A DNA stretch of 48,162 nucleotides from Eubacteriales bacterium (GTDB lineage: Bacteria; Bacillota; Clostridia; Lachnospirales; Lachnospiraceae). A program made the position numbers and the translations under genes. The DNA lies in the NCBI GenBank assembly GCA_030524715.1, contig JAUNGB010000035.1:1-48162 (forward strand), given 5' to 3'. The notes under the pieces are model-generated. The model saw only the letters and a program-made list of their open reading frames with translations, made no database searches and was not told where the DNA came from. Below are positions 6,041-35,904 of the stretch, in pieces; positions within the stretch are counted from its first letter, which is position 1; every line of letters begins with the position of its first letter.

Positions 6041-6069
6041 TTGCAAAACAGTTATTTTTTCTGTATACT
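6041..6069 (+). promoter_or_regulatory. Sigma-A promoter for the two-component genes
   Basis: TTGCAA, a 17-bp spacer and TATACT lie about 110 bases upstream of the sensor-kinase start. Of the 5878-6175 intergenic region, this and the opposing GH31 signals are the only sites I can support. Confidence 0.65.
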
Positions 6070-6175
6070 TAAACACAGACAGGCATTCCCCCGCGTAAAG
6101 GGGACATTCGTACAACATTAAGCAGAAACACGCTCTGGTATCATTACATAATAAGCAGGAAGGGGGAGAAATTCT

Positions 6176-9538: not shown

Positions 9539-9631
9539 GAGTGTTAAACGGCAGTAAAGCATTCCCCATACCCACCGCTTAGAGCTCTGCGCACCTGAAG
9601 CGGTGGGATGCTTATCCGCGTTTAAACACTC
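9539..9631. terminator. Large palindrome between convergent genes, likely two-way terminator
   Basis: A nested inverted repeat. Outer arms GAGTGTTAAACG (9539-9550) and CGTTTAAACACTC (9619-9631) pair with one bulge. Middle arms AAGCAT and ATGCTT and inner arms CCCACCGCTT (9571-9580) and AAGCGGTGGG (9598-9607) are perfect. It fills the gap between the regulator and the convergent GH42 gene and runs into the GH42 stop codon. Its inner part resembles the hairpin at 26284-26327 (shared TTCCCC and TGAAGCGG). Confidence 0.6.
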
Positions 9632-15746: not shown

Positions 15747-15765
15747 CATTTCTCCCTCCTTCTTA

Positions 15766-15810
15766 TTCAGCAGCATGCAATCCGTTAAAGCTGATATTCG
15801 CATTACGCTT
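15766..15810. repeat. Dispersed repeat, copy A, in the transporter operon leader
   Basis: This segment resembles 35818-35860: both begin TTCAGCAG, contain GCAATC, then GTAAAGC or GTTAAAGC, then GATATTCGCATT and end CGCTT. Copy A also lies in a longer palindrome, with arms CAGCAGCATGCA (15768-15779) and TGCATGCTGCTG (15830-15841). It would form a stem just upstream of the permease ribosome binding site. Confidence 0.6.
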
Positions 15811-15857
15811 CGCTGCATCTCATGAACACTGCATGCTGCTGCCTTTGAAATTATGAA

Positions 15858-16817: not shown

Positions 16818-19253
16818 ATGAAATTCGGACACTTTGATGATAAGAACAAGGAGTATGTCATTACCACTCCCCAAACACCGCTTCCATGGATTAACTATCT
16901 GGGAAATGAGAACTTTTTCTCTCTCATTTCCAACACCTGCGGCGGTTACTCTTTTTACAGAGATGCCAAACTGCTCCGTCTCACCCGCTATCGATATAAC
17001 AACGTCCCGGGTGACAACAACGGAAGATATTATTATATCAAGGACGGGGAAACCATCTGGAATCCTGGCTGGATGCCCACGAAAACATCGCTGGATTCCT
17101 ATGAATGCCGACATGGACTTGGTTACAGCCGTTTTCTTTCTTCAAAAAATGGTATCTCTGCTGATTTCACAGCATTTGTACCACTGCGCGAAAACTGCGA
17201 GATTAATCGTCTCGTCCTTACCAATCATACAGATGAGGTGAAAACTCTGACCCTTACTTCCTATTTGGAATTTTGTTTCTGGAATGCCATGGATGATATG
17301 ACCAACTTTCAGAGAAACTTAAGTATCGGCGAGGTAGAAGTCACCGGCTCTGAAATCTATCATAAAACAGAATACCGTGAACGCCGCAACCACTATGCCG
17401 TTTTTTCCGTAAACGCCACCGTGTATGGCTTTGACACAAGCCGTGACGATTTCCTGGGTTCATTCAATGGTCCTGATGCCCCGGATACCGTTCTGCGCGG
17501 TACTCCTGGCAATACTGTGGCAAGCGGCTGGGCAGTGATTGGTTCTCATTGTCTGAAAATCACCCTGAAACCTGGAGAAAAAAGATCCTTCATTTTCCTC
17601 TTAGGCTATATCGAAAATCCGGAGAACGAAAAATGGGAAGCTCCTGGTATTATCAATAAAAAGCCAGCCAGAGAAATGATTTCCCGATACAGAACAGACG
17701 AACAGGTGGACGCCGCTCTGGCTGACCTTTCCTCCTACTGGGAAAAACTGCTTTCCCGCTTTACCCTTGACTGTACGGACAAAAGGCTTTCCCGTATGGT
17801 AAATATCTGGAACCAATATCAGTGCATGATTACCTTTAATATGTCCCGCTCCGCTTCTTATTATGAGTCCGGCACTGGCCGTGGCATGGGCTTTCGTGAT
17901 TCCTGTCAGGATCTTCTTGGCTTTGTCCATATGATTCCTGACCGCGCCCGTCAGCGGATTTTGGACATCGCCGCCACTCAGTTTGAGGATGGCAGTGCAT
18001 ACCATCAATATCAGCCCTTAACCAAGAAAGGAAATCTTGATATTGGAAGCGGCTTCAACGATGATCCGCTCTGGCTCATCGCCGGAACTTCCGCTTACTT
18101 AAAGGAAACCGGAGATTTCTCCATTCTGGACGAAATGGTAGACTATGACAATGATCCCTCCAAAGCACGTCTGCTTTTTGATCATCTGTGTCGTTCCTTC
18201 CACTACACGGCCGAACACCTTGGTCCACACGGACTCCCCCTCATAGGACGCGCAGACTGGAATGACTGCCTCAATCTGAATTGTTTTTCCAAAAATCCCG
18301 GTGAGTCTTTCCAGATTACAGGACCCTCTGAAGGACCTGTCGCAGAATCTGTATTTATTGCAGGGATGTTTGTGAAATACGGAAAAGAGTATGCAGATAT
18401 TGCCGGTCACATTGGAAACCGGGAAGAAGAAGCTTTCGCAAAAGCTTCTGTTGACAAAGTATATCAGGCTGTTTTGGATGCAGGCTGGGATGGCGACTGG
18501 TTTCTGCGTGCGTATGATGCAAATGGCGACAAAGTTGGTTCCAAAGACTGCAAAGAAGGTAAGATTTTCATCGAATCGCAGGGTTTCTGTATTCTTGCCG
18601 GTATAGGCGTAAAAGAAGGGCTGGCAGAAAAGGCACTCATTTCAGTGAAAAAATACCTTGATACAGAATACGGCATCATGCTTCAGCAGCCCCCTTACTC
18701 TAAATATTATCTGAACCTTGGCGAGATATCCTCCTATCCGCCAGGATACAAGGAAAATGCCGGGATTTTTTGCCACAATAATCCATGGATTTCCATTGCT
18801 GAAACTATAGTCGGACATGGCGACCGCGCCTTCGAGGTATATAAAAAGACCTGCCCTGCATACATTGAAGATATCAGTGAAATTCACCGCACGGAACCTT
18901 ATGTATACTCGCAGATGGTTGCCGGAAAAGATGCCCCGCGCCATGGCGAAGCAAAGAACAGTTGGCTTACCGGAACTGCTGCCTGGACTTTTTTCAATGT
19001 TTCTCAGTATATTCTGGGCATCCAGCCGGAGTATGACGGCCTGACCATCAATCCATGCCTTCCAAATCATCTGGATGAACTTCACATCACCCGGTATTTC
19101 CGGGATGCCTGGTACAATATTCATATACAGAACCCGAACCACGCAGAAAAAGGAGTTTCCTCCCTTAAGGTGGACGGCGCTGCCCTCCCTGGCTGTTTTA
19201 TTCCCTTCCAGAAAGGCAAGAGCAGCTATGAGGTAGAGATTATTATGGGGTGA
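16818..19253 (+). CDS. Cellobiose phosphorylase (GH94)
   Basis: An 811-residue phosphorylase that converts cellobiose and phosphate to alpha-glucose 1-phosphate and glucose, saving ATP. Its length and sequence closely resemble the Clostridium thermocellum enzyme as I remember it: the N-terminus [18 protein letters not shown], the segment [10 protein letters not shown], and [14 protein letters not shown]-type motifs (here [14 protein letters not shown]). The general acid is expected at Asp483 in [11 protein letters not shown]. It is cytoplasmic, with no signal peptide. TAAGGAGG lies upstream of the ATG. It completes the locus by processing the beta-1,4-glucan backbone after side-chain removal. 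Other GH94 activities (cellodextrin, laminaribiose or chitobiose phosphorylase) are less likely given the similarity. Confidence 0.96.
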
Positions 19254-19254
19254 C

Positions 19255-19284
19255 ACATTATACATCCACAGCATGCGCTTGTCT
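19255..19284. repeat. Exact 30-bp repeat at the left edge of the restriction island
   Basis: Identical over all 30 bases to 26209-26238. Here it directly follows the GH94 stop codon. Read on the minus strand it carries TATAAT with CAGACA 17 bp upstream, so it could fire an antisense transcript into the GH94 3' end. Confidence 0.9.
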
Positions 19285-19303
19285 GTCCCTGCAACACAAA
19301 AAT

Positions 19304-19327
19304 CCCAGAAACCTTGCGGTTTCTGGG
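19304..19327 (-). terminator. Copy of the tuf terminator, now ending the island operon
   Basis: Stem CCCAGAAACC / GGTTTCTGGG with a TTGC loop, followed on the minus strand by ATTTTTG. It would stop leftward transcription from the island before GH94, and it may also end GH94 transcripts from the other side. Confidence 0.85.
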
Positions 19328-19384
19328 GTATCTTACATTTGGTCACAAGTTATCCTGCGATAACAAATCCATATTTAGATTGGA

Positions 19385-19439
19385 TTATTCGATGATAGAA
19401 GCAACACGGCCTGAGCCTACAGTACGTCCGCCTTCACGG
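19385..19439 (-). pseudogene. tuf 3'-end fragment
   Basis: It encodes [17 protein letters not shown] and a stop, identical in protein sequence to the end of the intact EF-Tu at 26472-27665. The three coding differences (GAA/GAG, ATC/ATT, GGC/GGA) are all synonymous. It therefore derives from a functional tuf allele and not from a decayed copy of the neighbour. The fragment stops abruptly at 19439. Confidence 0.92.
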
Positions 19440-19559
19440 TATCAGAATGGCGTGTTGCAGAAAATAAATGGTTATTTTTCGTTCATTTTGTGCGAAAAAA
19501 TACGGATTTTCCACTGCGTCCGTGTGGTTTTTGGGGATTTTGTTATCATGGTGTTATCA
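19440..19559. other. Left end of the island, non-coding
   Basis: AT-rich sequence between the tuf fragment and the stop of the GmrSD-like gene. TTATCAT occurs twice near 19540-19558 and there is a weak CCAC/GTGG stem. I see no gene, integrase site or clear terminator other than the one in the repeat. Confidence 0.5.
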
Positions 19560-21290
19560 TTACCCTTCAATAATATTGTGATACATAACTTCTGCAATAC
19601 ATTTTGTTCGCTCCACAATCTCTTTTTCTCCCCATTCCACTTTATCCTTATTTTCATCCACAAATCTTTTTACCGTTGCATATTGAGATTCTGGATATCG
19701 TGCCATTTTTAACTCAAACTTTTTATTAGACAACTCATTATTTAGTTGTTCTCCTAATGGTAATAAATTTCCTATCATACCTACATACTCTGTTTCAACT
19801 GATTCTGGTAAGATGTGTTCTATTGTAAATGAATTTGGCACCAACTCGTTAGAGGAATAATATGTATCCAATTTTTTCAAAATATACTTTACCAACTTTT
19901 TATCTTTTTCTTTTGTTGATGTATATTCAATTTTTTCAAATTGCTTTTCAAAGATACTATAGTCGGGTATTCCTTCTTTCAAGTCAGTAATCAAATTATT
20001 AATGCAATCAGCACTCTCCTTTTTACTTGTACAATTTCTTAATTGTCTTGCATATGACGAATATCTACGTTCAAGTCCAGATGGTCTACTTGAGCAAACA
20101 GCAGTAAATATAAAATGATAATGCTCCAAATAAACTAATATCTTTTTAAAATTTTTAAAGGATATTAATTGAGATTTTTTCATCTCAAACAGTGCAAGTA
20201 AAAAGATTCTAACTTGTGATACATTAAAAATACTAAAACTTTCTAAACAATTGTATATAAACAGTTCTTCTGGTTGCGTCCAATCTTCTCTCTTAGGTGT
20301 CGCTATTAAAGAATATTGCTTAGCTTCGTTTTCTAGTGAATTAATAAACTTTGTATATTCTTCAATTGTACGTGGTATAGTTTTATTAAAATTATATACC
20401 AGTTTTCTTGTCGTTGATAAACTATATTTTGAAAGCCAAAAATGTCTATAGAATATGTTTATATCCAAATCTATGCAATTTTTCAAATTTTTCTTTATTT
20501 CTTTCCATTTTTCTACCGCATAATCCAACGGCTCATCTTCCGTTAAGATACTAAACAATGAATTTTTAATCATATCTACCGGTGCCAAATCTTTTCCTTT
20601 TGAATTTAACACCTCAAAAATAGTATATGCATCGTCTAGACTTTTTACTGTAACATAAATAACCTTACATTTTAAAATTTGATCTCTAAATGCTTTCAAA
20701 GCATCCAAGTAACTTATATCTCCTGATCCAGAATTATTATCTCTAATATTTTTTATTAAAACAGTTTCTTTTAACTGTCGATCAAAGAAATTATATGCAT
20801 TCAGTATCCTTTTTTCTTCATTTGTCTCAGGTATGGCATTAAAATCTATATCTTTTTGTTGAATTCTTCTTTGAAAAAACGGTTTAGGATTTTCATTTAC
20901 TAGTTTCGCATATGGATTTCCGTCATTATCTTCTCCCATTACATTCAAGTGTGTCTTCTCGCTCAATTTTTCTTGCCCTAATTCTTTAAATTTTTGAGCC
21001 AAAACAGCAAATGCAATAGTAAAAGTCATTAATCGTTGTTGTCCATCTACTACCAAGCGTTCTATTTTATTAGTATCATCATCATCACCGACTAATACTA
21101 ATGAACCAATAAAGTAATCATTTGTAGAAAATACACCCTCTCTAATATATATATTTTCTATAAGATCTTCATATATTGTTTGTAACTCTTCATTTTCCCA
21201 CGCATATTCTCTCTGAAATCTAGGAATTACATATTTTCTTTGCACTCGCAGTGCATCATCTATACTTTTAGGTACTGATGTCAAATCCAT
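19560..21290 (-). CDS. GmrSD-like DUF262/DUF1524 restriction protein
   Basis: A 576-residue protein. The N-terminal DUF262 (ParB/GmrS-like nucleotidase) domain shows VIPRFQREYAWENEELQ and the signature VDGQQRL (Asp82 to Leu87). The C-terminal DUF1524 HNH-type nuclease domain shows TIEHILPES near residue 488 and GNLLPLGEQLN with NKKF beyond. Single-chain fusions of these domains form the GmrSD family of type IV, modification-dependent restriction enzymes, several of which block phages with modified cytosines. AAAGGA precedes the ATG. It is the last gene of the methyltransferase-endonuclease operon, starting 22 bases after the endonuclease stop. The target modification is unknown. Many DUF262 proteins have other or undefined roles. 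Confidence 0.88.
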   Translation of the reverse strand: MDLTSVPKSIDDALRVQRKYVIPRFQREYAWENEELQTIYEDLIENIYIREGVFSTNDYFIGSLVLVGDDDDTNKIERLVVDGQQRLMTFTIAFAVLAQKFKELGQEKLSEKTHLNVMGEDNDGNPYAKLVNENPKPFFQRRIQQKDIDFNAIPETNEEKRILNAYNFFDRQLKETVLIKNIRDNNSGSGDISYLDALKAFRDQILKCKVIYVTVKSLDDAYTIFEVLNSKGKDLAPVDMIKNSLFSILTEDEPLDYAVEKWKEIKKNLKNCIDLDINIFYRHFWLSKYSLSTTRKLVYNFNKTIPRTIEEYTKFINSLENEAKQYSLIATPKREDWTQPEELFIYNCLESFSIFNVSQVRIFLLALFEMKKSQLISFKNFKKILVYLEHYHFIFTAVCSSRPSGLERRYSSYARQLRNCTSKKESADCINNLITDLKEGIPDYSIFEKQFEKIEYTSTKEKDKKLVKYILKKLDTYYSSNELVPNSFTIEHILPESVETEYVGMIGNLLPLGEQLNNELSNKKFELKMARYPESQYATVKRFVDENKDKVEWGEKEIVERTKCIAEVMYHNIIEG

Positions 21291-21312
21291 TTTTTTGTAT
21301 CCTTTCTCTATA

Positions 21313-23313
21313 TCAAATTATTATCTTTATTGTCTCAGAGCAAGATAATGAAATAATTGTATTTTTAAACGCAATAACATAAGCATATATCATTCCTTCT
21401 CCAAAACGATCATGATTCACTTTTCTTCCATCGGAATCAACACTTAATTCCTCTGGGATTTCGTTCAGATAAGGAAATTTAGCAGATTTTGTTTGACAAT
21501 TCGGCAAACTCACTTCAATAGCTATTACCTGACCTTTTCCAGCAACTGGACTATACACCAATGCTCCAGGTGAAATTACCTGATTTTTTTCTTTTCCCAA
21601 AAGACTTTTATGTTGTTCCATTCTACTTATCTTTTCGTTGATCGCAGTACCTATATACGCCTTCCATCCCGGTGCATTTAGAATATCTCTTCTGGTTTCA
21701 CACAGTAAAATCAATTCCCGCAGTTTTTCCGGATTAACATGACCAGTTCTAAACATTGCCATAAAATATTCTCTATATTGTGCCAATGTTAACGGAACAA
21801 TATCCAATCTCTGCTTTACATCTCCTCGTGCATACCAAATTCCATGTCTAAATGTTTCTGCCGTATTTGTATCTATTTTTACTGCAATAAATATTCCGTA
21901 TACAGGCTTGTCATATTTTAAAACTGCATCAGATACATGCCTTCTTACAGGTTCTCCCTCCATTGCTTCCTGGCGTGATGACGTTGACATAGTAACTTCT
22001 GTTAAAATAGTAAAGTCATTAAACTCACAATATAAGTCACCTTTTCCGCCACCGGCAGCAGATACTGGAAAAAAATCAGAATCCAGTTTAAATCCTCGTA
22101 CTTCATACGGTTTGTTGACCATATGGTCTATAGCTAAGGATGCTCTCCATAAAATCCATTCTAAATATGCCGGAGTTTCATCTTTTGGCACCTCAATGAC
22201 ATTGTCATCATCATATGTACGCTTTCCACCGCCTTTGATCAACAGTTCCATATAATCTGCTATTTCTTGCCATTGATTACATTGTTCTTTCGCATATTGA
22301 ATTTCATCTGTTTGAGATAGTATATTTTCCAAACGCTGTCTGGCAATATTGATTTCTGCTGCGGTGTTTAATGGAAGATCAGAAACATCAAACAAAATCT
22401 GTCTACCCTTCATCTGTTTCATCAGGTCATTCAATAAAGCTTTAGCAGTATCCACATTATCCGTTGGTAATTCTGCTCCTTTACATAATCGCTTATATTG
22501 AATCAGTATTGATTCTTCATTCGATGTTGATTTTGCCAATTTTTCAGCCAGAATATGCTTAGCCGGAGTAATGATCATTCCTCTTCCTTTTCGTTGTAAT
22601 ACCCCTGAAATACGTAAGTACCGCATATTCATATCACTATAATCAAGAAAATTATCTGCTTTCTTATCATAGTATTTTCCACGTTCCGCAACTTCTTTCC
22701 TATCAAAATTGCGCTTTGACGGAGCTAGTTTTCTACGAGTACGCAAATCCAGAATATTATCCACAATATCTCCAATTGAATAACTCGGATTTGTCGTATG
22801 CCCCCATAATGCAAACTCTATTCTGGTAATCTCTGAACTTCCTGTCCTCTTCTCTAACTCTAGCATAATCGCCAATATCCACCGCAAAGGGGAGAAATAA
22901 GATTTTCCATCTGGCATAATAAATTGCTCAACACTCAATGCTCTTAAGTAACATTCTTGCACTGCCGGATATGTATCTGCTTTTAAGAAAGTACGACCAA
23001 ACGGTGTTATATCATCTAAACTCCCCAATTTGTCCTGCTCTCCATCTTTTTTCTTTATTTGTGGATAGATAAATCCATTTTTTGAAAACATTAATCGCCA
23101 TTTCCGAGCATGACTACCAGATATATCTTTTCCAGCTTCATTTTGAATGATTCCACGATCATTAAGGAAATTCATAAAACCAATCTCATTCTCTTTTCCA
23201 CGGAGCTTTCCCACATATGGCGAATTCGCAAAAGCTTTAAAGCCTTCCTGTATTCTATTTGGATTTCGTAATCCAGTATTTCCTACTAACCAAATCTCTA
23301 TTTTTTCTTCCAT
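21313..23313 (-). CDS. AlwI-family type IIS restriction endonuclease
   Basis: A 666-residue endonuclease resembling the AlwI family (relatives include PleI, MlyI and BstNBI), which cut a few bases to one side of an asymmetric site. The N-terminal half (IGFMNFLNDRGI, SYFSPLRWILAIMLELEKR) is the DNA-recognition part in this family. The catalytic core is GKGDLYCEFNDFTILTEVTM, with candidate metal ligands Asp426 and Glu439, followed by the conserved MEGEPVRRHV. R.AlwI recognises GGATC; whether this enzyme does is unknown. Its start overlaps the end of the fused methyltransferase gene by 16 bases, so the two are translationally coupled, with modification made first. The assignment rests on remembered family motifs. 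Confidence 0.82.
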   Translation of the reverse strand: MEEKIEIWLVGNTGLRNPNRIQEGFKAFANSPYVGKLRGKENEIGFMNFLNDRGIIQNEAGKDISGSHARKWRLMFSKNGFIYPQIKKKDGEQDKLGSLDDITPFGRTFLKADTYPAVQECYLRALSVEQFIMPDGKSYFSPLRWILAIMLELEKRTGSSEITRIEFALWGHTTNPSYSIGDIVDNILDLRTRRKLAPSKRNFDRKEVAERGKYYDKKADNFLDYSDMNMRYLRISGVLQRKGRGMIITPAKHILAEKLAKSTSNEESILIQYKRLCKGAELPTDNVDTAKALLNDLMKQMKGRQILFDVSDLPLNTAAEINIARQRLENILSQTDEIQYAKEQCNQWQEIADYMELLIKGGGKRTYDDDNVIEVPKDETPAYLEWILWRASLAIDHMVNKPYEVRGFKLDSDFFPVSAAGGGKGDLYCEFNDFTILTEVTMSTSSRQEAMEGEPVRRHVSDAVLKYDKPVYGIFIAVKIDTNTAETFRHGIWYARGDVKQRLDIVPLTLAQYREYFMAMFRTGHVNPEKLRELILLCETRRDILNAPGWKAYIGTAINEKISRMEQHKSLLGKEKNQVISPGALVYSPVAGKGQVIAIEVSLPNCQTKSAKFPYLNEIPEELSVDSDGRKVNHDRFGEGMIYAYVIAFKNTIISLSCSETIKIII

Positions 23314-25220
23314 ACATCCTCTCCATTAAATCCGACAAATAAATATTCCTGTACCTTATTCCGATTTGTCTTAGCATGTTTTTGATTTCCAAAAGAATAT
23401 GTGTAATCTATAGGAACTACTTCCACATGCTCTTTGTACTTAGACATAAGTGCAACCATTTCATCTTGTGTAGGTTGACTATTTGAAGAATATGATACAA
23501 TCAAAATGCTACCCGAAAACTTCTTGAACAATTTATCAAATGCATCTGCAGCACCTTTTCTGGTTGAAAATGGAGTAGGATATGACTTAAATTTCTTTGT
23601 TACCGTATTCTCTTGTATTTCTACTCCTTTCCAATCTCGTGCCAGCCCTTCAACAAAGTGGTATCTTCGCACATATTCGTTGTCTGACAACGGAGAGTAA
23701 TATGGCGGATCAATATACACTAAATCCGGATGTTTCATTTTAACTTCCATTGCATCACCATGCTTGGATTTATTTTCGCATCCGTTATCAAAAATTGCAT
23801 TATTGATGCTTTCCACCGCTTCCAGGAACTGTTGTTCTAAAGATTTCTGTAAATCTTTTCGACCATCATTATATCGATCTCCTGTATATGTAAAAATCCC
23901 CCTTGGTCTTTTCTTTGTGCAAGCTCTAATCAACGCTGACATCGCAATTGCTTTTTTATACTGATCTCTGATTCCAGCAATATTAGTTCGTAAAATATCT
24001 ATCAGTCTGTTTTCTTCATCTTTATAGTATAATCCCTGAAACGTATTTTCTACAAAATGATCAGATTCCTTTTTTTCAATCAGTAATTTTTCCGCTTCCT
24101 CTAAGGGCAATGTCACCTTATTATTCTCCACCATTGCTTTAGTAAAAGTTGCTGACATCGCCATATAGTCATTACTGATCACAGTCTTTCCCTGCGCCTT
24201 AAACATATATCCCACAATTCCAGAACCCGAAAATAAATCTACTACTGTATTAAAATTAAACTGTGAAGCTACCGCCCAAATTTGTGGTAATAATTTGCTT
24301 TTCGAGCCCATATACCTGGTTGCCGGATATTTCGCTACCTGCTCTGGCAAAGGTTTCGGAACTATTTTTAGCATTGACTTCTGCTTTGGTAATATATCTA
24401 CAATGATGTCTTCGCCTTTTCTTTTACTTCCATTGCAGGAAATATATCTTTTGGTTTGAATAACTTCAATTTTATAATCCGCATATAACTCATGAACCAA
24501 TGGATGATTAGAATTAGTCAATATTACATGGCATCCTAATTCCTGCAGCCTTTTAACTTCATTTGCCAATTCCACATGATCTTCTTCATAAAATTGTTCC
24601 TTTGTGTATCTCTTAAAATCAGAATATTCTGAAATCGGCAAATACGGTGGATCTAAAAATATAAAATCTCCCGGTTCTGCATATTCTTTCAATACCGATA
24701 AATAATCGCCACATGTTATAATAGCTTTTTTCAATACCTCTGAAGCAGCATATAAAGCCTCCTCATCACAAAATTTCGGTGCTTTATATTTTCCATATGG
24801 AACGTTAAACTGTCCTTTCTTATTAACACGGTATAAACCATTAAAACAAGTTTTATTCAAATAAATAGTTCTTGCTGCAGCTTCTTCTTTTTTTAACTTA
24901 AGCCAATCTAAAGAACGCACCTCGTAAAAATCTTCTTTAGTATTTTTATATTTTCTTAAGAAGGCAATAACACTCTCTACGTTATCGGCAACCTGCTGAT
25001 ACACATTAATCAATTCTGGATTGCTGTCTGCAATTACCGCTTTATCCGGACTTAACGCAAAAAACAATGCCCCTCCGCCAATAAATGGTTCTATATATTT
25101 TCCATATTTTTGAGGAATTTTAGGCATGATATCACCTAACATCTGAGTTTTTCCACCAGCCCATTTCATAATTGGCTTCGCCTGTATATGTTTTTCTTTT
25201 TTTAAAACTTGTTCCATCAT
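23298..25220 (-). CDS. Fused double D12-class DNA adenine-N6 methyltransferase
   Basis: A 640-residue protein with two complete Dam-like methyltransferase domains. Domain 1 (about residues 1-280) shows MKWAGGKTQML, the SAM motif FIGGGALFFAL and catalytic FLDPPYLP near residue 191. Domain 2 (about 295-640) shows RYMGSKSKLLP, DLFSGSGIVGYMF and catalytic YIDPPYYSP near residue 500. Two adenine methylases in one chain are expected for a type IIS system with an asymmetric site, one for each strand, as in M.FokI. It protects host DNA from the adjacent AlwI-like enzyme. Two adjacent ATGs (25220, 25217) follow GAAGGGAAAAAGG; the first is given. It leads the methyltransferase-endonuclease-GmrSD operon from a promoter at 25339-25367. 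Confidence 0.92.
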   Translation of the reverse strand: MMEQVLKKEKHIQAKPIMKWAGGKTQMLGDIMPKIPQKYGKYIEPFIGGGALFFALSPDKAVIADSNPELINVYQQVADNVESVIAFLRKYKNTKEDFYEVRSLDWLKLKKEEAAARTIYLNKTCFNGLYRVNKKGQFNVPYGKYKAPKFCDEEALYAASEVLKKAIITCGDYLSVLKEYAEPGDFIFLDPPYLPISEYSDFKRYTKEQFYEEDHVELANEVKRLQELGCHVILTNSNHPLVHELYADYKIEVIQTKRYISCNGSKRKGEDIIVDILPKQKSMLKIVPKPLPEQVAKYPATRYMGSKSKLLPQIWAVASQFNFNTVVDLFSGSGIVGYMFKAQGKTVISNDYMAMSATFTKAMVENNKVTLPLEEAEKLLIEKKESDHFVENTFQGLYYKDEENRLIDILRTNIAGIRDQYKKAIAMSALIRACTKKRPRGIFTYTGDRYNDGRKDLQKSLEQQFLEAVESINNAIFDNGCENKSKHGDAMEVKMKHPDLVYIDPPYYSPLSDNEYVRRYHFVEGLARDWKGVEIQENTVTKKFKSYPTPFSTRKGAADAFDKLFKKFSGSILIVSYSSNSQPTQDEMVALMSKYKEHVEVVPIDYTYSFGNQKHAKTNRNKVQEYLFVGFNGEDVWKKK

Positions 25221-25338
25221 GCCTTTTTCCCTTCGATCTCTGTTTTATTTCCATGTTATCACTAATTTCACAATTTTTTATAACTAACTGCCATATTTTA
25301 ACCTCTAAATCAATTTTCTAAGATATTGCCATAATGTT

Positions 25339-25383
25339 ATTCTATCATGTGATTTCAGTGGTATCAATACTAATTTCAGTGGT
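25339..25383 (-). promoter_or_regulatory. Methyltransferase promoter overlapped by a paired operator-like repeat
   Basis: On the minus strand TTGATA, a 17-bp spacer and TAGAAT form a promoter (25339-25367). The 11-mer ACCACTGAAAT occurs twice in direct orientation (25352-25362 and 25373-25383), exactly 21 bp apart. One copy lies in the spacer and the other just upstream of the -35. That is two helical turns on the same DNA face, as expected for a dimeric or cooperative repressor. The rest of 25221-25455 is AT-rich without a gene. Confidence 0.6.
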
Positions 25384-25455
25384 CGCAGACTTTTATTCAA
25401 ACTTTTGTTCTCATTTGCAAAACTTACTCCTCAGCCACTAATGAACTCTCCCATA

Positions 25456-26184
25456 TCAGTTTAATTTTTCTAAGACGAAAATATACTCATGTGCTAACAT
25501 TAAGAATTTTCGTTCTTTTCCCTCCCAATAATCTGCTGATCGACAATTGTGCTGTTCCTTTATAATGATTTCTTTAAGTTTAAATCCGGCATCTGTAAAT
25601 TTCTGCATAGAACTCATTCCCAAAGGCATCACATACCCTTTTTTTCGTATATCCCCAATCATAAATGCACATATTCCCTGCTTCTTTAATACTCTATATG
25701 CTTCTCTTGCGATTTGCTCCAACACCTTCAAAAATTCCTCATATTTTAAATGTGAAATATCTCCCGGAATATCTTTACTATATTTTATAATATCCGCATA
25801 AGGTGGATGAGTACAAACAAGATCTATACTTTCATTTTTTATAAACGATAAATTGGCTGCATCTCCCTGTTTTGTGAAGATTTTTGACTTTTCCTGACAA
25901 GTAAAATTAAGATTTGTATTAGATAATTTGACGGCTTCAGAATTTATATCAACGCCGATAGCATTTCTTCCTAATAGTTTTGCCTCAATCAATGTTGTAC
26001 CGCTGCCTAAGAATTGATCCAATATCCAATCATTTTTCTTTGAATACCGTGTAATAAGGTTTCTGGGAATGTACGGAGACCAGTTTCCCCTGTATTTTCC
26101 CGAATGTGTAGCCCAATTCCCTCTTTCCGGGAAAGACCATATTGTTGTATCTTCTAATTTAAATTTTTCTGGTGCTTCTCTTAT
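25456..26184 (-). CDS. Small DNA methyltransferase with ATA at the start position
   Basis: A 242-residue site-specific DNA methyltransferase. The N-terminal part WSFPERGNWATHSGKYRGNW and the SAM motif DQFLGSGTTLIEAKLLGRNA are followed by GVDIN and the catalytic-type motif CTHPPYADIIKYS. The histidine in place of the usual Asp, Asn or Ser before PPY is notable. The frame is open to an in-frame TAA at the edge of the 30-bp repeat, with no ATG, GTG or TTG before the N-terminal motifs. AAGGAGAG lies eight bases before an ATA codon (26182-26184), exactly where ATG would be expected. The next usable codon, TTG at 26022, would remove 54 residues and the start of the SAM domain. Either the gene is crippled by ATG-to-ATA change or ATA works weakly. 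It has its own promoter. Target base is unknown. Confidence 0.75.
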   Translation of the reverse strand: MREAPEKFKLEDTTIWSFPERGNWATHSGKYRGNWSPYIPRNLITRYSKKNDWILDQFLGSGTTLIEAKLLGRNAIGVDINSEAVKLSNTNLNFTCQEKSKIFTKQGDAANLSFIKNESIDLVCTHPPYADIIKYSKDIPGDISHLKYEEFLKVLEQIAREAYRVLKKQGICAFMIGDIRKKGYVMPLGMSSMQKFTDAGFKLKEIIIKEQHNCRSADYWEGKERKFLMLAHEYIFVLEKLN

Positions 26185-26208
26185 AGAAATCTCTCCTTCC
26201 TTTTTTGA

Positions 26209-26238
26209 ACATTATACATCCACAGCATGCGCTTGTCT
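26209..26238. repeat. Exact 30-bp repeat at the right edge of the island
   Basis: Identical to 19255-19284. In this copy the repeat supplies nearly all of the promoter for the small methyltransferase. Confidence 0.9.
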
Positions 26239-26239
26239 A
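26211..26239 (-). promoter_or_regulatory. Promoter of the small methyltransferase gene
   Basis: On the minus strand TAGACA, a 17-bp spacer and a perfect TATAAT lie about 27 bases upstream of the ATA codon. The sequence coincides with the 30-bp repeat, so the promoter is part of the duplicated edge and not of the island core. Confidence 0.75.
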
Positions 26240-26371
26240 CAAAAATATTTCAACTGAGCGGTTAGATGTTCTCATAATCACCCTCATTCCCCTGTTTAAT
26301 GCTTTACGAACTTGAAGCGGGGAATGATTCTCTATATGCAAATTATGTTATGGGTACATTAAATGATTACT
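26239..26371. mobile_element. 133-bp insertion with hairpin, present only in the right repeat
   Basis: The 30-bp and 155-bp repeat blocks are adjacent on the left side (19284/19285) but here are separated by 133 bases. The stretch holds a stem TCATTCCCC (26284-26292) and GGGGAATGA (26319-26327). CT is found at both junctions. It resembles a small non-coding palindromic element; alternatively the left copy lost it. No coding sequence is seen. Confidence 0.45.
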
Positions 26372-26526
26372 GTCCCTGCACCACAAAAACCCCAGAAACC
26401 TTGCGGTTTCTGGGGTATCTTTCATTTGGACACAAGTTATCCTGCGATAACAAATCCATTTTCAGATTGTATTACTCGATAATAGAAGCAACACGGCCTG
26501 ATCCTACAGTACGTCCGCCTTCACGG
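26372..26526. repeat. Right 155-bp direct repeat: end of intact tuf plus terminator
   Basis: The counterpart of 19285-19439. This copy is joined to the complete tuf gene. Confidence 0.92.
26390..26415 (-). terminator. Intrinsic terminator of tuf
   Basis: A perfect 11-bp stem (CCCCAGAAACC / GGTTTCTGGGG), a 4-base loop and a following TTTTTG on the minus strand. It ends the str operon. Confidence 0.93.
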
Positions 26527-27665
26527 ATAGCGAAGGTAAGACCCTGGCTCATAGCGATCGGGTGAATCAGCTCGATTGTCATTTCGATGTTATCTCCAGG
26601 CATGCACATTTCTGTTCCTTCCGGAAGGTTGCAGACACCTGTTACGTCTGTTGTTCTGAAGTAGAACTGCGGACGATAGTTGTTGAAGAATGGTGTATGA
26701 CGGCCACCTTCATCTTTTGTCAGAACGTAAACCTGAGCTGTAAATTTGGTATGGCAGTTAAGTGTTCCTGGTTTGCAGAGAACCTGTCCTCTTTCGATTT
26801 CGTTTCTCTGAACGCCACGAAGAAGAGCGCCGATATTGTCACCAGCCTGAGCTTCGTCAAGAAGTTTACGGAACATTTCGATACCGGTTACAACTACTTT
26901 ACGTTTTTCTTCTTTGATACCAACGATTTCTACTTCTTCAGATACACGAAGAGTACCAGCCTCTACACGGCCTGTAGCAACAGTACCACGGCCTGTGATG
27001 GAGAATACGTCCTCAACAGGCATAACGAAAGGTTTGTCAGTGTCACGCTGCGGATCCGGGATATACTCGTCAACTGCGTTCATCAGCTCAAGGATCTTGT
27101 CGCCCCATTCGCCGCTTGGATCTTCCAGAGCTTTCAGAGCGGAACCCTGGATGATCGGTGTGTCATCGCCCGGGAAGTCATACTCTGTTAAGAGTTCACG
27201 GATTTCCATATCTACCAGTTCAAGAAGCTCTTCATCGTCTACCATGTCGCATTTGTTCATGAATACTACGATGTAAGGAACACCTACCTGACGGGAAAGA
27301 AGGATGTGCTCTTTAGTCTGAGCCATAACACCGTCTGTAGCAGCAACAACAAGGATAGCACCGTCCATCTGAGCAGCACCAGTGATCATGTTCTTAACGT
27401 AGTCAGCATGTCCTGGGCAGTCAACGTGTGCGTAATGTCTGCGTTCTGTTTCATATTCAACGTGTGCGGTAGAAATTGTGATTCCACGTTCTCTTTCTTC
27501 CGGAGCTTTGTCAATGTTATCGAATGCAACTTCCTGACCAAGACCTAATCTTTCATGAAGAGTTTTGGTGATAGCTGCTGTTAAGGTTGTTTTACCATGG
27601 TCAACGTGTCCAATGGTACCAATGTTACAATGCGGTTTTGTTCTCTCAAACTTAGCCTTTGCCAT
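26472..27665 (-). CDS. tuf: Elongation factor Tu
   Basis: The 397-residue GTPase carries aminoacyl-tRNA to the ribosome. GTP-binding motifs [18 protein letters not shown] and NKCDMVDD are intact, and domains 2 and 3 follow to the usual end [17 protein letters not shown] lies before the ATG. It closes the rpsL-rpsG-fusA-tuf cluster and has its own promoter in the 135-bp gap after fusA, which fits the high demand for EF-Tu. Its last 55 bases and terminator are duplicated 7 kb away at 19285-19439. Confidence 0.99.
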
Positions 27666-35771: not shown

Positions 35772-35817
35772 GGTCTACCTCTTCTTTTCATTTTACTTAT
35801 ATTTATTACTGCAGTTA

Positions 35818-35860
35818 TTCAGCAGAAAGCAATCGTAAAGCGGATATTCGCATTCCGCTT
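35818..35860. repeat. Dispersed repeat, copy B, in the phosphatase leader
   Basis: Similar to 15766-15810. Here AAAGCGGA and TCCGCTTT form an 8-bp stem around TATTCGCAT. As with copy A, it lies just upstream of a minus-strand gene. Confidence 0.6.
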
Positions 35861-35904
35861 TGGTACATGCCCTGGTACATCGCTGTACTGGTATATCCTG
35901 CGCT

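Follow-up and report, generated by a model that had tools for sequence, protein, structure and literature searches.

Why should a set of restriction genes lie between two copies of the 3' end of tuf, the gene for elongation factor Tu (EF-Tu)? The question is raised by a 48,162-bp stretch of DNA (the window) from a Eubacteriales bacterium of the Lachnospiraceae, contig JAUNGB010000035.1 of assembly GCA_030524715.1. The tuf 3' end and its terminator are present in the window as two direct copies of 157 bp with 10 mismatches (self-BLAST E 2e-63); the original prediction had recognized this repeat and its mismatches but had put its length at 155 bp. As had also been predicted, the displaced copy, which codes for 17 EF-Tu residues and a stop codon, differs from the resident end by 3 synonymous changes and encodes an identical protein, and the intervening DNA is AT-rich, with a GC content of 33.5% at positions 19440-26238 versus 45.9% for the window outside 19251-26526. 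The restriction island is very probably the right-hand remnant of an integrative mobilizable element (IME), belonging to a family whose tyrosine integrases have the final 17 tuf codons as their target.

Recurrent use of this site, a constant cut, a clade of integrases at tuf, a conserved right end and a missing left end were all evident from sequence comparison. The tuf end was searched for in 61 genomes, namely the window's own and those of 60 relatives, and subsequently across the genus, in 64 genomes including that of the window; the counts obtained are lower bounds, since only 12 candidates were scored in some genomes and a match of any kind was noted in 44 of the 64. Extra partial tuf ends starting at query positions 44-46 were present in at least 17 of the 64 genomes, in at least 22 copies. 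Among the loci collected, 35 matches started at these positions and represented 27 distinct sequences, which began alike save for a few base changes (CGTGAAGG, CGTGAGGG or CGCGAGGG) and were preceded by sequence other than tuf, of about six types as judged by eye. The C-terminus of EF-Tu was kept in 25 of these 27 partial ends, the exceptions being an early stop in L077 and a substitution in L079. Fifteen matches that started elsewhere were excluded from this count. Two of them include tuf codons and could stem from a different cut, namely L043, which starts at 69, and L073, which starts at 77; of the rest, L059 starts at a contig end and the others are parts of the terminator or inverted matches to it.

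Elements in relatives have a tyrosine integrase behind tuf and, 4.6-12.8 kb further on, a displaced end of the gene with an identical cut position. Other sites appeared empty: in 17 genomes of the genus with at least 4.5 kb of sequence behind tuf, no displaced end was found, and five integrase types from the relatives had no match there. The genes behind tuf in G078 (families c0, c12 and c13, with a sigma factor and a MerR-like regulator among them as judged by eye) also follow the displaced tuf end of G074, which has an extra gene pair, nucleotide identity between the two being 69-78%, in pieces. The original proposal, in which an element integrates at the tuf 3' end and replaces the end of the gene, is thus upheld by the relatives, in which integrase and displaced end occur together, the cut is constant and some sites appear empty.

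The integrases behind tuf, designated IntA, IntB and IntC, are 55-61% identical to each other. IntA was represented in the GTDB collection by 21 loci, 20 from gut Clostridia (mostly Lachnospiraceae as labelled, two being labelled no more closely than uncultured bacterium and Clostridia bacterium) and one from Listeria at 30% identity. A tuf 3' end lay 1.1-2.9 kb upstream of the integrase in 16 of the 17 decidable loci, the exception being that of Listeria, which had no tuf; the contigs of the other four (L051, L056, L057 and L059) end 0.5-4 kb upstream, two of them starting inside a tuf-end match. A search for IntB in 397 genomes of the family gave a match at E 1e-60 in 134, in 50 of which EF-Tu was sought. 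Among the matches listed at 48% identity or more, 20 of 27 were on a tuf contig within 11 kb downstream of the gene (17 at 0.9-2.9 kb and the others at 5.3, 9.6 and 10.3 kb), and seven were on contigs that lack tuf, one of the seven coming from a genome in which no tuf was detected. For the 26 genomes with best matches of 40-47%, only G239 had a listed match within 11 kb of tuf (at 6.8 kb), and in a few others the matches were on the tuf contig but hundreds of kilobases away. In G104 and G111, tuf ends its contig and nothing was decidable. Because the IntA and IntB searches share genomes, the two sets of counts are not independent.

In a tree of 44 representatives, a 98/100 branch split 18 same-strand tuf-associated integrases (and one undecided) from 20 off-tuf integrases, the latter side also holding three opposite-strand tuf-adjacent integrases and one undecided row. 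This tree left out near-copies, IntD, IntE and fragments shorter than 200 residues; its labels were assigned by hand, those of five integrases that follow an internal tuf end and of three located 5-10 kb away from the gene included. The off-tuf rows were picked from among the listed search matches, and Listeria forms a very long branch at the root. The tuf-associated integrases would be the enzymes that catalyse the insertion.

The three opposite-strand integrases constitute a second group, located 90-120 bp from the tuf stop codon in G083, G350 and G388 (L073, L119 and L125). Since they form a 100/98 group of their own, tuf targeting probably arose at least twice. In the IntB search, G350 and G388, both among the genomes with matches of 48% identity or more, showed an additional 40-44% integrase on the opposite strand, 90-250 bp from tuf. 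At L043 (16411-17856, genome G027), a Tn916-type integrase was noted next to a match of 31 bp to the tuf end that is cut elsewhere, possibly a third targeting lineage.

The contents of the related elements show what accompanies these integrases. In the IntA element L034, the order behind tuf is a helix-turn-helix regulator, the tyrosine integrase (Phage_integrase with Arm-DNA-bind_4 and SAM-like domains), an AAA_25 ATPase, a Mob_Pre relaxase (which we take to belong to MobV), TnpV, cargo with no obvious defence gene, and the tuf end. Integrase, Mob_Pre and, mostly, TnpV were also found in IntB and IntC elements. The order in L051, from Hominisplanchenecus faecis, is IntB, Mob_Pre, TnpV, MTase2, another methyltransferase with an endonuclease, a GmrSD-like gene and the tuf end, MTase2 being 87% and the GmrSD-like protein 22% identical to those of the window. 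Other cargo, sampled as ten chosen proteins in each of two rounds with some in both and hence no census, comprised a C5-methyltransferase with Vsr-like and AriA-like genes (L058), a C5-methyltransferase with a type II endonuclease and an AAA_21 protein (L072), a MATE transporter (L053) and a GmrSD_N gene (L049). The corresponding cargo of the window (Table 1) includes a predicted AlwI-like restriction-modification system, for which endonuclease and methyltransferase models were both matched over their full length (model positions 23-643 of 643 of PADLOC MTase_II PDLC03261 in the case of MTase1).

The right end of the island resembles those of L072, L033, L058, L062, L051, L078, L038, L055 and L053. 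It contains the motif TGATAACACCATGATAACA, which, with up to 3 substitutions, was located at -120 or -121 from the crossover in IntB-type right ends and at +230 in the left ends of IntB elements (240 in L052 and 241 in L060) and was not found in the IntA and IntC elements checked; it may be an integrase arm site. The right motif was kept and the left motif missing in all five integrase-less islands with IntB-type right ends, i.e., the window, L033 (the second unit of the array in G028), L038, L167 and L168.

Table 1. Coordinates of tuf, the restriction island and its junctions in the window
Feature	Position	Strand	Remarks
tuf, EF-Tu of 397 aa, target gene	26472..27665	-	sole full copy found in assembly
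Resident tuf 3' end: last 17 codons, stop and terminator; tuf-side repeat copy, attL position	26370..26526	-	
131-bp segment where the element left end is expected	26239..26369	-	REP-like hairpin at 26281-26333
30-bp repeat copy 1, promoter-like TAGACA-17-TATAAT of MTase2	26209..26238	-	
MTase2, second methyltransferase, N6_N4_Mtase	25456..26208	-	first in-frame ATG/GTG/TTG is TTG at 26022
MTase1, D12-class adenine methyltransferase, 640 aa	23298..25220	-	PADLOC type II MTase model over residues 13-631
AlwI-family restriction endonuclease, 666 aa	21313..23313	-	RE_AlwI profile 4-439 of 441
GmrSD-family protein, 576 aa	19560..21290	-	also PADLOC HEC-06 / Orf5 models
Putative integrase arm site TGATAACACCATGATAACA	19541..19559	-	-120 from crossover as in IntB elements; left partner (+230) missing
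Element right end	19440..19559	-	77-91% identical over 125-133 bp to nine other loci
Displaced tuf 3' end, attR position	19283..19439	-	cut as in 27 compared partial ends
30-bp repeat copy 2, putative scar between displaced tuf end and stop codon of gene 16818-19253	19255..19284	-	

The earlier statement that no recombinase remains in the window holds for tyrosine recombinases: of the 33 PF00589 matches found in the assembly, 31 exceeded the cut-off and none was on the window's contig, and the five integrase types from relatives had no match in the window at E 1e-15; serine recombinases and transposases were not sought window-wide. Mob_Pre and MobA_MobL queries likewise had no match in the window, other relaxase families not having been sought. 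The 131-bp segment in the place of a left end matched none of the element left ends compared. An element of this family would have integrated at tuf in such a way that its own tuf end completed the gene and the old end was pushed to the far side. Its left end, with the integrase, relaxase and TnpV genes, would subsequently have been deleted or replaced, leaving the AlwI-type restriction-modification genes and the GmrSD gene behind tuf. The insertion model is retained in outline, the island being a left-truncated remnant and not an intact insertion.

The exact 30-bp repeat noted in the original prediction is indeed exact, and no further copy of it, with up to 3 mismatches, was found in the 5.28-Mb assembly, but only one copy adjoins its tuf end: the second abuts the displaced end, while the first is separated from the resident end by 131 bp (26239-26369). 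The first copy aligns by eye with the region upstream of MTase2 in L044, L051, L167 and L168 and is therefore regarded as a promoter belonging with MTase2. The second follows the stop codon (19251-19253) of the neighbouring gene and would be a rearrangement scar, most simply the trace of a second unit of the same island that was deleted up to this gene. At the divergence of the tuf ends (10/157), the chance of zero mismatches in 30 bp is 0.14, and the two copies may thus date back as far as the repeat of the tuf ends. The 30-bp repeat was also considered as an attachment core or site and was rejected, given the assignment of its copies to promoter and scar.

MTase2 itself has no usual in-frame start codon (window 26150-26210), the ATG next to the promoter being off frame by one after a run of A; this ATG is out of frame also in L051 and in frame in L044 and L167, and phase variation or a rare start codon is possible. 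The repetitive extragenic palindromic (REP)-like hairpin in the 131-bp segment belongs to a repeat of about 60 bp that occurs in the window at 26281-26333, at 9554-9626 and, weakly, at 6069-6100. This repeat is dispersed in the genome (14 matches scored of 86 candidates) and was found in 11 of the 64 genomes of the genus, with 8 matches in G029.

Several observations weigh against descent of the island from an integrated IME. The resident tuf end has its closest relative in the displaced end of the same window (94%) and not in an end borne by an IntB element, and the left junction is accordingly no plain attL; it may have been reshaped by homologous exchange. The window is a whole contig in an assembly of 210 contigs with an estimated contamination of 5%, which leaves some chance of misassembly in the window itself. 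The left arm-like motif is also missing from L062, which bears an integrase. The empty state of the window's own site was not seen, each species being represented by one genome, and the best occupied and empty pair is between other species (G074 and G078), with tuf and integrase of G074 off the contig seen. Finally, the AlwI cassette also occurs away from tuf, 36 kb from the gene with no tuf end in G409 and without tuf or a tuf end in the 20 kb seen in G217. An island without a tuf fragment had been named beforehand as evidence against insertion; what these two genomes indicate is that the AlwI cassette is not bound to tuf. For the converse case, a partial tuf end without an island, a near-case only was noted, at L077 (68-984, genome G010), where a partial end with a premature stop is situated only 0.8 kb behind tuf with nearly no island between them; we read this as an island whose decay has gone further, to near-complete collapse.

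The gene at 16818-19253, presumably GH94-like although no family assignment covers it, was beside tuf in none of the matches listed for other genomes of the genus and provides no synteny anchor. A high identity of the resident tuf end to the displaced one was considered as a mark of integrase-less islands and was not relied on, as it holds for the window, L038, L041, L074 and, roughly, L167 and fails for L168 and L042; among integrase-bearing elements, L034 is also high, and L053 and L076 are intermediate.

An alternative that we consider rather unlikely is that the integrase-less islands are functional non-autonomous elements, i.e., cis-mobilizable elements (CIMEs), moved by the tuf integrase of a second element in the same cell. 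Matches to the AlwI-like endonuclease at E 1e-40 were found in 10 of the 397 family genomes, its own included, and MTase1 had no match at E 1e-80 in the other 63 genomes of the genus. Context was taken from five of the nine others (G225, G375, G409, G217 and G127, the last on a short contig without tuf), and G163, G407, G389 and G428 were left out. In G225 and G375, which represent two other genera, tuf is followed directly by MTase2, MTase1 and AlwI genes, the right arm and a displaced tuf end are both present, and IntB, IntD, IntE, Mob_Pre and TnpV gave no match at E 1e-10, so that the same integrase-less cargo occurs behind tuf in three genera. The MTase1 proteins of the window and these genomes are 94-95% identical compared with 87-88% for EF-Tu, which indicates horizontal transfer of the cargo. 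The gene before the right arm varies, from GmrSD in the window to a 743-aa gene in G225 and a 579-aa gene in G375. Movement by a borrowed integrase would also fit the array in G028, in which integrase-bearing and integrase-less units are mixed.

The same alternative would account for MT839393.1 (an unverified linear record of 4,318 bp from human feces, deposited as Bacteriophage sp.; L152 1-430), which runs from an IntB-type right end across a tuf end into an IntA left end at 97.7% identity to L044, an order expected of a composite circle. This record fits an excised composite or a chromosomal tandem equally and decides nothing. Among viral contigs, one had an IntB-type junction near its end, no IntB relative was confirmed and no IntA- or IntC-type junction was found; among plasmid records, four had integrases of 36-45% identity and none matched the island. 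Mobility of the integrase-less islands is further opposed by the loss of the left arm-like motif from all five that have IntB-type right ends. Left junctions, compared by eye, consisted of a stretch like the 3' end of TnpV in G225, unrelated sequence in G375 and the 131-bp segment with its hairpin in the window, and the differences among the window, L167 and L168 fit separate truncations. Moreover, no IntB homolog was found at E 1e-60 in the window's genome among the best 4 of 25 candidates, a result qualified by the 31 PF00589 matches over the cut-off on other contigs. A broader proposal, that the tuf 3' end serves the Lachnospiraceae as a docking site for at least two separately evolved integrase lineages, with tandem defence arrays and islands that move between genera by borrowed integrase, is similarly speculative and, taken as a whole, doubtful.

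Tandem duplication, or the Campbell-type recombination of a circle with a foreign tuf end that the original prediction had offered as a second route, would dispense with a site-specific recombinase. It would explain why each tuf end of the window has the other as its closest relative and why the 30-bp repeat is duplicated too. From homologous recombination alone, however, neither a constant cut in 27 distinct partial ends nor conserved right ends with a motif at fixed distance and integrases beside tuf would be expected; this explanation, which insertion does not need, is thus very improbable. Decay of a normal second tuf gene to the partial end, the restriction genes having come to lie between the two copies fortuitously, would be in keeping with the presence of two tuf genes in some bacteria but is effectively refuted by partial ends that comprise the last 17 codons only, share one cut position and are preceded by an element right end, and by the failure to find a second full tuf in the assembly.

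Elsewhere in the window, a 56-bp direct repeat with 82% identity (15763-15818 and 35815-35868) bears no relation to the island.

The gene concerned is highly expressed. With descent from a tuf-targeting IME as the preferred reading, a puzzling repeat becomes a mapped attachment site in an essential gene, where the last 17 codons would be swapped and the protein end kept. The site, the integrase clade and the tandem arrays may help to find and delimit islands in common gut bacteria, several of them with restriction or defence genes, and the tuf end is suggested as an integration site for genetic tools in Blautia and relatives. Among the open-licence papers listed in the literature searches, titles and abstract openings yielded no recognizable report of tuf as an attachment gene. 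The term was absent from the available portions of PMC5704250, PMC12884075, PMC8138268, PMC5357655, PMC4701971 and, as a whole word, PMC3826726, and in the accessible text of PMC10269605 tufA appears only as a virulence gene near the attR of an integrative and conjugative element in Brevundimonas. The TIGER/Islander database, as outlined in the accessible part of PMC12424338, may already contain such islands.

Compared with known systems, the window has the constant-cut tuf ends and the right motif at -120 that mark the tuf family of IMEs and has no left motif at +230; two features of an IME, an integrase and a relaxase of its own, both remained without a match in the searches described. The attL and attR core positions are both present. 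As in a CIME, the cargo lies between two repeats, here the tuf ends, with no integration or transfer genes detected by the PF00589, integrase-type and Mob_Pre/MobA_MobL searches; unlike in a CIME, the left arm-like motif is missing, so that attL is at best its core part. In Firmicutes IMEs of the IMESag-rpsI type, the gene end is reportedly restored on integration. These IMEs, according to the sections seen of PMC5704250 and PMC5357655, share with the tuf family site-specific integration at a conserved gene (rpsI, rplL and guaA among others), an integrase with a Mob_Pre relaxase and tandem accretion, streptococcal IMEs averaging 10 kb (PMC5357655); they differ from it in that the target here is tuf, the integrase clade is found in Lachnospiraceae and the copy in the window has neither integrase nor relaxase. 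Salmonella genomic island 1, as described in the available text of PMC8409611 and PMC6531882, is likewise a mobilizable island at the 3' end of a protein gene, trmE, and differs in hosts, target gene, mobilization system and cargo. The general mechanism of IMEs, their accretion and their decay to CIMEs is already established; after the literature search, the island appears to be of a known kind, an IME decayed to a CIME-like remnant, and what appears new is its target gene, tuf, together with the clade of integrases associated with it.

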